NCBI GenBank assembly: GCA_017432345.1
Contig: JAFRJI010000010.1
Location: 1-54,894 of the forward strand
Reading direction: 5' to 3'
DNA length: 54,894 nt
Source of the DNA: Bacillota bacterium
GTDB taxonomy: Bacteria > Bacillota > Clostridia > Peptostreptococcales > Anaerovoracaceae
The notes under the pieces were generated by a model. The model was not told where the DNA came from. It saw nothing but the letters and a program-made list of their open reading frames with translations, and did no database searches. Each line of letters begins with the position of its first letter. The stretch's first letter is position 1. Shown piece after piece: positions 38,309 to 40,123 of this stretch. Both the position numbers and the translations under genes were made by a program.

Positions 38309-38692
38309 ATGACAAACCGAATCGAAATCAAGATCTCAGGGAAACGCTATTCTGTCCCGTACGAAGACATCGTCTATTTTGAAAAGAACTTGAGAAAGAT
38401 CATTCTGCACACGAAGAAAGGAGAATTGGAATTCTACGGCCGCTACTGTGATGTAATGCCGCAGCTCGACGAGCGCTTCGCCTGGTGCCATCGGAGCTAT
38501 GTCCTGAATATGCGCGAGATATCCATCATCAGCCCGGAGGAAGTTGTCCTGTCCGACGAAACGCGCTTCCGGTTTTGCAAGAGCTGCTACAAGCGGCTGA
38601 TCAACGCCTTCGATGCTTTCCTTGACGAATCTGTTACTGAATCGGGTGCATCCGATGTAGCTCCAGATACATCCGGCGCGGATCTTAATTGA
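38309..38692 (+). CDS. Stand-alone LytTR DNA-binding protein
   Basis: The 127-residue protein consists almost only of a LytTR domain: VPYEDIVYFEKNLRKIILHT, GELEFYGRYCDVMPQL, WCHRSYVLNMREI, and RFRFCKSCYKRLINAFDAF near the end. No receiver domain or membrane part is fused, and no kinase is adjacent. Such small LytTR proteins usually regulate nearby genes, often bacteriocin, competence or inhibitory systems (LytTR regulatory systems pair with a membrane inhibitor, absent here). GAGGAGG fixes the ATG at 38309. The repeat array and nuclease gene follow; a regulatory link is possible but unproved. Confidence 0.88.
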   Translation: MTNRIEIKISGKRYSVPYEDIVYFEKNLRKIILHTKKGELEFYGRYCDVMPQLDERFAWCHRSYVLNMREISIISPEEVVLSDETRFRFCKSCYKRLINAFDAFLDESVTESGASDVAPDTSGADLN

Positions 38693-38775
38693 TTTGGTGT
38701 GGATTCTAGTTCATCCGACGCAGTCAGAGCATAGGAGGGGCGCGACTTCTACAACAGGCAGATTGTAATTTAACG

Positions 38776-39123
38776 CAGATGTCCACCGATTTATACAGTT
38801 TTGTGCATTTGCATGGTGCGTTGGTGGACGGTCAAAGGTCTGCCAAGGTGATTGTCCCACCGATTTGATTTAATAATAGCCTTTGACAAGGGTCACGGTG
38901 GACGAATCATTTGATTATACAAGAATCGTCCACCTATATGGACTGAAAAGCTGACTAGACAGTCAAATCGGTGGAACACAAATCCTGCTAATGGAGAATC
39001 GTCCACCGACAAACGCTGGAAAGCTGATTGGGCCATCAAATCAGTGGAACATAGTATTTTGCAATGAAGAATCGTCCACCGACATAGTCCGCAATATGTG
39101 ATAAACGGGAAAATCGGTGGAGA
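38776..39123 (+). repeat. Array of five 55-bp inverted-arm elements at ~73-bp period
   Basis: Five elements start at 38776, 38854, 38923, 38996 and 39069. Each is exactly 55 bp: a 12-bp arm (consensus GAATCGTCCACC), a 28-bp variable middle and a 15-bp arm (consensus TCAAATCGGTGGAAC). The second element lies in reverse orientation; the first is degenerate. Elements 3, 4 and 5 are spaced exactly 73 bp apart with 18-bp linkers. The arms pair (TCCACCGA with TCGGTGGA), so each element can form a hairpin in DNA or RNA. The last arm runs into the SD of the nuclease gene. The array fills the 440-bp gap between the LytTR and nuclease genes; no ORF is credible there. Function unknown. Confidence 0.8.
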
Positions 39124-39134
39124 AAGGAATAAGC

Positions 39135-40004
39135 ATGATGGATTTCAGAGATTATGTGCAGAGGAGCATAGCTGCCGACCAGCGGCTTGCGAAGTATTAC
39201 CGTACGGTCGCCGGGCCGAAGCAACCCTTGGTCCTAAAATGCAGGTATCGATCAAGAAAGGGAACTTTGGAATACTATGTCAGGAACGTGGAAACGGGCG
39301 AGGAACGATATCTTGGAATCAAAGACTACAAAAAAATCACTGCGTTGCAGAGGCAGAAGTTCGCGGAACAGAAACTCGAGATACTGGAATGCAACATCAA
39401 CACCAAGGCAGAACTTTGCGGATTGCTTTTGGATGATGACATGGAGAGCGTTCTGGCAAGCCTGCCGCGTGCCTATCGGCCGAACGAGAAACTAGAAGAG
39501 GCATATGCAAAAGCTTTGGTGGCCGCTGGGCAAACGACCAGAAGCAAAGCGGCGAGCGAGGTCAAACAATCGGAGAATCCTTTCAAGCCAGAGAACCTGA
39601 AGATCCGGACAAGCTTTGGGTTGTTCGTGCGGTCGAAGGGGGAGCTGGCCATTGCTGAGGTCCTTCATGGCATGGACATTCGGTTTTATTATGAGAAAGC
39701 ATTGGCTCTGCAGGTGCAGAGGCGGGAGGAGACGGGCGTTCCGTATAGGGCGAGACATACATATTATCCGGATTTTACGATTCCGTTGAGGGATGGAACA
39801 GCAGTTTATTGGGAACATCAAGGGCTTTCCGCGGATCCGAATTATGCCTATCGAAGTGCACAGAAAGAAGTCGATTATAACCAGAACGGTATCTTTCAGG
39901 CACACAATCTGATTGTGACGGGAGAAGGCCCTAACAACATGATTGATATGGATGGAATCACGCGCATGATTGACGGTTGGCTGATGCCATTGTTGGCAAT
40001 ATGA
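39135..40004 (+). CDS. Orphan PD-(D/E)XK-type nuclease-like protein
   Basis: The 289-residue protein has an N-terminal Tyr/Arg/Lys-rich half (1-150, helical; no known domain recognised). The C-terminal half looks like a restriction-endonuclease fold: Glu170 in VRSKGELAIAEVL, Asp213 in TYYPDFTIPL, and Glu227 in VYWEHQGL where an E-x-K is usual. A later Lys (SAQKEVDY) and NLIVTGEG complete the pattern. No partner methylase is nearby. AAAGGAA before ATG 39135 (or 39138) is immediately downstream of the repeat array. The gene is followed by a short terminator and a 14-bp palindrome. Nuclease activity is inference from motifs. Confidence 0.65.
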   Translation: MMDFRDYVQRSIAADQRLAKYYRTVAGPKQPLVLKCRYRSRKGTLEYYVRNVETGEERYLGIKDYKKITALQRQKFAEQKLEILECNINTKAELCGLLLDDDMESVLASLPRAYRPNEKLEEAYAKALVAAGQTTRSKAASEVKQSENPFKPENLKIRTSFGLFVRSKGELAIAEVLHGMDIRFYYEKALALQVQRREETGVPYRARHTYYPDFTIPLRDGTAVYWEHQGLSADPNYAYRSAQKEVDYNQNGIFQAHNLIVTGEGPNNMIDMDGITRMIDGWLMPLLAI

Positions 40005-40080
40005 AACCAGCGGTGAAGAAGAATACATTGGGCGCAGAAACAGAACGTGTCGATTAGCCAAAAAGGTTGAAAAACGAATG

Positions 40081-40123
40081 TGCATTTAAATGCAGAAAAC
40101 CCTTGCAACCATAGGGTTTTTGT
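40081..40123 (+). terminator. 14-bp palindrome and short terminator after nuclease gene
   Basis: TGCATTTAAATGCA (40081-40094) is a perfect palindrome. AAAACCCT-TGCAACCA-TAGGGTTTTTG (40096-40123) behind it is a short terminator hairpin. Confidence 0.55.

Follow-up and report, generated by a model that had tools for sequence, protein, structure and literature searches.

A phased array of inverted short repeats beside a PD-(D/E)XK nuclease gene in an Anaerovoracaceae genome, and its possible REPtron-like working

The array and the nuclease gene beside rpsB

The DNA analysed here, called the window, is a stretch of 54,894 nt (contig JAFRJI010000010.1 of assembly GCA_017432345.1) from a Bacillota bacterium (Anaerovoracaceae). 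It contains an array of inverted short repeats that runs up to a gene encoding a nuclease-like protein of 289 residues, and this array-nuclease pair is the subject of the present report. Five units of 47 bp lie within 38782-39121, between the LytTR-domain gene lytTR (38309-38692) and rpsB (from 40331), and the features are as follows.

38700..40091, + strand: approximate array-plus-nuclease insert, lytTR to rpsB; right edge set by aligning one relative, left edge approximate
38782..38828, - strand: repeat unit 1, reversed; arms TCCACCAA/TCGGTGGA on the - strand
38856..38902, - strand: repeat unit 2, reversed
38929..38975, + strand: repeat unit 3; arms TCCACCTA/TCGGTGGA
39002..39048, + strand: repeat unit 4; arms TCCACCGA/TCAGTGGA
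39075..39121, + strand: repeat unit 5; arms TCCACCGA/TCGGTGGA; ends at the ribosome site
39135..40004, + strand: gene of the 289-residue protein

Each unit is built of inverted 8-bp arms near TCCACCGA/TCGGTGGA with 31 bp between them (8 + 31 + 8), and the centre-to-centre steps are 74, 73, 73, and 73 bp. A gap of 13 bp, in which an AAAGGA-type ribosome site lies, separates the end of the last arm from the start codon (ATG, 39135). The 7-mer GTCCACC has six exact copies in 450 bp (both directions counted), which none of 200 dinucleotide shuffles matched, and among other 450-bp tiles of the window one of 119 reached p<=0.01. An array of inverted arms in steps of about 73 bp, ending at the Shine-Dalgarno sequence of the gene, had been proposed in an initial annotation made from the letters of the window and is confirmed here. 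Its count of five elements also holds, while its constant element of 55 bp gives way to a unit of 47 bp, its division into 12, 28, and 15 bp being merely one possible split. The annotation further described a single reversed element and a 28-bp middle of varied sequence; two units (the first and second) are in fact reversed, as judged by eye from the asymmetric inner end AAATCGGTGGA, and the middle is partly constant, with A at position 20 of the unit in 12/12 and at position 19 in 11/12 aligned oriented units (orientations chosen by hand; 3 of this genome's 15 listed units excluded).

The tetramer CGTC marks one foot in each of the five window units (feet within 38778-39077), in 2/14 other units of the same arm family, and in 0/90 units of 19 other families; two to three of its bases belong to the arm, and it never forms the four bases just outside. 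Because this foot is so rare beyond the window units, no argument is built on it. An Rfam scan of the region returned only two chance-level matches, far under the gathering scores.

The lytTR gene lies in the same place beside rpsB in 21 of the 29 genus relatives examined. The lytTR-rpsB gap spans 150-479 bp in these 21/29 relatives (lytTR on the same strand) versus 1,638 bp in the window, and in none of the 29 was a nuclease homologue found in the stretch examined at the rpsB site (four of these loci include under 1 kb of upstream sequence). Homology to the relative G279 picks up again at 40092.

The encoded protein consists of an N-terminal coiled-coil/three-strand domain (residues 1-130) and a C-terminal TnsA/T7-endonuclease-I-like PD-(D/E)XK domain (about 141-289; E170, D213, E227, and Q229), in line with the nuclease-like gene of the initial annotation. 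The protein shows the E ... PD ... ExK active site on the common fold that marks the PD-(D/E)XK superfamily. Its family is large and uncurated, with a homologue in 180/296 genomes of the same GTDB family (48/92 genera) and a top value listed of at least 8 matches per genome. In a phylum-wide sample, a homologue was found in 13/299 genomes at E<=1e-10, including the own genome and one other of its GTDB family, and some of these matches are only the nuclease domain inside a large open frame. Named relatives comprise 23 loci in metagenome assemblies labelled Bacillota, Clostridia, Clostridiales, Lachnospiraceae, Tissierellia, and others, horse and goat gut among the sources. A further homologue in the own genome (L033, G000 C7) has only 57 bp left before the contig ends; the flank, which may have included an array, is therefore missing.

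Among 43 family members, NCBIfam matched one, weakly and to an unrelated family; Pfam gave weak matches of single members only (Phage_endo_I in 3/43); and PHROGs gave weak matches to endonuclease and Holliday-junction-resolvase families (up to 14/43). A Foldseek comparison with viral models yielded 13 matches at E<=0.001, several of them named endonucleases, every TM score being under 0.5. We also observed the same nuclease domain inside large AAA ATPase or helicase-like proteins (plasmid matches, long open frames), which come close to the PDC-S68 candidates of PADLOC.

PDC-S68 itself is matched by 43/43 members (best E 1.2e-34), the window copy aligning to the C-terminal end of the profile, and shares with them the C-terminal nuclease domain, which would suit a defence module in which the nuclease attacks invading DNA and the arrays serve as decoys or self-marks. 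However, such profiles span about 1,200 residues, viral contigs gave six pattern stretches and no relative of the nuclease by this search, and the plasmid (6) and phage (3) records hold the nuclease-domain part only, save one 74% match at E 3e-4. A defence role of this kind is thus given little credence.

Arrays beside homologues and arms away from the gene

The 450 bp on each side of 49 homologues were compared with 200 shuffles (p<=0.01), and an array was found upstream in 12/49, downstream in 13/48, and on either side in 22/49. Downstream, the words found at L016 and L023 are doubtful as arms, the union being 21 if L023 is dropped, and in L012 the best-scoring word is not the arm, though arms are visible. 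At a distance of 1 kb or more from the gene, control tiles from these loci contained an array in 0/152 cases (100 shuffles). A second set gave an array at 13/21 further loci; these are 21 of 48 loci, with already-tested genes and matches within larger proteins left out, and three of them (L184, L199, and L201) nevertheless repeat genes from the first set but add no array to the count. The idea that array and nuclease form a module is therefore supported well beyond the window (22/49 and 13/21 against 1/119 and 0/152), whereas the expectation that homologues would carry the same arms is not, nearly all having another sequence.

The arms differ at nearly every locus (e.g., CAGGGACAC, AGGTATAC, GTCTACC, TAGACAA, TTACACAT, and TTCCGCA). 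Shared arms were found between the own genome and G235, L012 and L049, and L107 and L110, and even paralogues within one genome (G463) have unlike arms (GACGTAA, TAGGCTA, GTATTAC, and TACGTGA). The units come in two widths, with arm starts about 39-43 or 23-31 bp apart. Six of nine long-unit families have a TTGAAA core, which 6/300 shuffles equalled (a weak to moderate signal); in four families it lies 15-17 bp from the arm, and the window units have another centre. Similar array copies flank the gene on both sides in L011, L012, and L013 (by eye), those of L013 (G128) being two near-identical direct repeats. At L187 (G543), nine units (from 928) and 13 units (from 2676) lie on opposite sides in 53-bp steps, the middles are mostly near-repeats, and the larger array alternates two middle types; an Rfam scan of L187 returned 0 matches.

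Type III toxin-antitoxin loci place tandem repeats in front of a nuclease gene whose product is an endoribonuclease toxin, and the window resembles them in having tandem repeats ahead of a nuclease gene. The antitoxin leader suggested by the initial annotation is not supported, as arrays are about equally frequent downstream and upstream of homologues, and orphan arrays, inverted arms, and a DNA-nuclease-like fold also speak against it.

Arrays without a nuclease gene were found in the own genome. The pattern CCACCG-N29..34-CGGTGG matches 13 times (control 0); 11 of the 13 lie within four arrays on contigs C45 (window), C11, C39, and C47, and the remaining two have another spacing (46 bp), one of them inside an open frame. 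The three orphan arrays are intergenic, at birA-like/mmdA, yajC-secD, and cobT-aminotransferase (names from a reading of the open frames), and the 6.5-7 kb examined at each contains no nuclease homologue. The initial annotation held that an element scattered without the nuclease would be an unrelated dispersed repeat; scattered copies do occur, but their arms are the same as those of a nuclease locus, so they are not unrelated to it. Between the orphan arrays of C11 and C39, identity amounts to 59/64 in the arms, 88/124 in the middles, and 64/102 in the linkers (Fisher p 3e-5). The arms are more alike than middles and linkers and have therefore been conserved or re-copied. Counted from YajC residue 90, the yajC-secD distance is 1,091 bp here, 341 bp in the three nearest relatives, and 289-887 bp in 25 other relatives (one not measurable).

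In the 49 genomes of the genus, any match to the pattern occurs in 13. Outside the own genome, matches are hardly more numerous than those of reversed-pattern controls, with 18 versus 13, and in G235 three versus three. G235 is set apart in that its three matches alone combine the exact spacing with the longer arm CCACCGA/TCGGTGG, a combination lacking in the other 15, and in that one of the three adjoins a 49%-identical homologue. On contig C25 of G235 (L092, 1201-1300), another short tandem repeat (CACGTATCTGGCCGCGAGG-like) adjoins an orphan TCCACCGA unit. Arms of the TCAACCTT family gave four matches in G211 (two at the gene) and two in G069 of 12 genomes searched (control 0), some of them single units, and the dispersed places are intergenic, as for the own family. 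Arms of the TCCCCACT family were confined to G098 of 16 genomes, with seven matches at the gene and four elsewhere (control 0). The CTCATACAT pattern matched in 0/12 genomes and missed even known arrays, which makes it uninformative; three of the four arm families searched are thus dispersed, the fourth pattern being blind.

These data bear on the multi-site operator that the initial annotation had offered, in which the protein would control its own gene by binding the arms, with the dispersed arrays as additional control sites of a small regulon. An operator fits the window, where the array runs up to the ribosome site and contains a promoter-like match (38883-38910; four such matches in the region versus 2.1 expected, standard deviation 1.5), and it agrees with the constrained arms of the orphan arrays and with a helical phasing suited to cooperative binding. 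The downstream arrays (13/48, including the doubtful L016 and L023) argue against a general upstream operator, and the reading is further opposed by orphan arrays at genes as unrelated as those named above and by the retained nuclease active-site pattern. Overall, an operator with a small regulon is considered unlikely.

Alternatively, the repeats could be made by another enzyme, e.g., a Y1 transposase, with the nuclease gene landing in or near them. Orphan arrays and homologues without arrays are compatible with this, the L013 gene between its two direct array copies could represent an insertion into an array, and the CGTC at the window feet is a tag of palindromic, dispersed REPs for which one report (PMC3733652) knew of no dedicated transposase. 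Those REPs, as described, have stems of 8-9 bp and loops of 4-5, unlike the 31 bp between arms here, where the CGTC foot is found in only 7/19 own-family units and overlaps the arm. Moreover, the arms follow the nuclease: full arms CCACCGA/TCGGTGG at exact spacing occur in the own genome and G235 only, among the 49 genus genomes, and the G463 paralogues differ in arms. A third-party origin of the repeats accordingly seems improbable.

Units as DNA sites or as RNA

The units are spaced on whole helical turns. In a first set of 28 unit-centre distances from 18 arm families (cluster values gathered by hand), none is further than 3 bp from a multiple of 10.5 (p 5e-6 with one value per family). In a second set, from loci outside those that framed the test, 13 values from nine loci all lie within 2.5 bp (p 3e-5); L110 was dropped here as a twin of L107, L185, L099, and L101 yielded no distance, and the width for L204, L206, and L207 comes from one exact pair. 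For the first set a period of 10.5-11 fits best, for the second one of 10-10.5.

Where an arm departs from its consensus, the partner arm mostly does not follow (compensated in 6/76 cases). Mismatches between paired arms, read in gene sense, comprise 20 G-T, 14 A-C, and 23 other, which gives no clear strand bias. An apparent wobble excess (33 G-T versus 10 A-C in stored orientation) was rejected, falling to 20 versus 14 in gene sense with orphan loci excluded. A general inner hairpin was likewise rejected, as the middles compared with mononucleotide shuffles gave a mean z of -0.4 over 20 arm families. L011 alone stands out (z -3.5), the other family means ranging from -1.4 to +1.4 per strand. 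This locus (G098) has 37-bp units with a 14-pair stem and four far copies on contigs C82, C98, C115, and C205. In ten related sequences, 96.4% of the stem cells are paired and three pairs have changed on both sides; 0/500 shuffles equal the covariation score or the count of doubly changed cells, while 81/500 equal the number of such pairs and 236/500 the number of pair types.

Double-stranded DNA is preferred over the processed repeat RNA of the initial annotation because of the lack of a clear strand bias, the two reversed units, and the helical-turn spacing. On balance, the sequences suggest that the units function as sites in double-stranded DNA; in some families a hairpin or cruciform may also play a part.

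An RNA alternative with a known precedent is a guide-RNA array in the manner of TIGR-Tas, in which the units would be transcribed and two variable stretches of 9-10 nt would guide the nuclease. According to its description (PMC12045711), TIGR-Tas is similar in having an array up- and/or downstream of the gene, a repeat that is constant within a locus and different between loci, and units with two short variable stretches. However, the nuclease fold here is another one, the arms are inverted, both unit directions occur inside one array, and no box C/D pattern was recognised by eye. As for the Nop domain of that system, the TasH match here is only level with those to prefoldin and Rad50 coiled coils, and TasH is absent among the 50 VIA-align matches listed for the N-terminal domain alone, which is no proof of absence. 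The mismatches without clear strand bias, the helical phasing, the orphan single units, and the 22-unit array of L187, whose middles are mostly near-repeats rather than many different spacers, are also at odds with guides. A guide-RNA array is thus regarded as very unlikely.

Relation to REPtrons and a possible mechanism

The closest working analogue is the REPtron, which combines REPIN/BIME repeats with a transposase, although it is not the same system. REPINs have been described as two inverted REPs with a diverse spacer that are duplicated by RAYT (PMC8049555), and tandem BIMEs and REPtrons have also been described (PMC8266576). The likeness is that the enzyme gene adjoins its repeats, enzyme and repeat type go together, and short repeats stand in inverted pairs around a variable middle, in tandem or singly, in intergenic places. 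Inverted pairs with a variable linker, both at the gene and dispersed, were found here in three arm families. The differences are that the enzyme here is of the PD-(D/E)XK type and not a Y1 HUH transposase, several unlike copies occur per genome, repeat numbers are low, units stand on whole helical turns, and middles fold no better than shuffles outside one family. The Y1 family is absent from the Pfam and NCBIfam matches, and GTAG at the foot (four bases outside plus four of the arm) occurs in 4/109 units, all in L022, and in 0/19 of the window's family. Since the enzyme differs and GTAG is no constant foot, the system is not a REPtron member. It also differs from TnsA of Tn7, a reading of the open reading frames finding no TnsB/C/D partner gene beside the window nuclease, and from both TnsA and T7 endonuclease I in its own N-terminal domain and in a context that is not phage.

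We propose a dispersed two-part repeat system that works in a REPtron-like way with an unrelated enzyme, a reading to which we give an even chance of being right. Each member of a multi-copy family would own a private short arm sequence (7-10 bp), set in inverted pairs about 30 or 41 bp apart; the units, arrayed or single and on whole helical turns, would sit beside the gene and, in the tested families, between genes elsewhere. The protein is the natural candidate for the arm reader because the arms change with the gene's family, and it would most probably bind its own arms in double-stranded DNA as a multimer on one helix face. It would then nick or cut at or near the unit; either an extruded cruciform or the unit itself could be the substrate of its T7-endonuclease-I-like domain. 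Units and arrays, and at times the gene along with them, would subsequently be kept, multiplied, and moved through repair, recombination, or copying. Such cuts, once repaired or recombined, would account for the tandem steps, for the scattered copies, and for the array copies that flank genes on both sides, a course that in outline resembles the one proposed for REPtrons. The sequences themselves show that gene and array are associated, that arms differ between loci and recur in dispersed copies, that relatives lack the gene at the corresponding site, that units are helically phased, and that arms are better conserved than middles; arm reading by this protein, cutting, and spread driven by cutting are inferred.

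Several observations weigh against this proposal. An exact insertion of a unit with a clean empty site was not found, and the left edge of the insert and a target duplication are not fixed; at yajC-secD in the own genome, the extra sequence exceeds what the array explains. At position 229, where a catalytic lysine would be expected, the window copy has Q, and the residue is not conserved across the family. In the first set, 27/49 homologues are without an array by the test used, though some of them (L003, L006, and L032) show one or a few inverted pairs. The four to 13 exact pattern matches per array-holding genome are far below the hundreds to thousands of classical REPs. Finally, the inner-stem covariation of L011 speaks for a hairpin or cruciform rather than a purely double-stranded site in that family.

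In the open-access papers searched, no published description of the nuclease-array pairing was found. We place the pair with the enzyme-plus-own-repeats kind, and there is a fair chance that it merits a separate class. The more specific definition, a junction- or site-cutting PD-(D/E)XK nuclease that spreads private 7-10 bp addresses in phased inverted pairs, with mutually blind families in one genome, is put forward tentatively, as we judge it somewhat less likely to be right than wrong.

If the proposal is true, REPIN-like enzyme-driven repeat families would have arisen a second time, from an unrelated nuclease. It would also supply a testable candidate of another kind for palindromic repeats without RAYT, the enzymes serving such repeats having been left open by PMC3733652. 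The many natural protein/arm pairs would then lend themselves to working out how a small protein recognises short DNA addresses, and the mode of binding could be tested directly on the phased arrays.
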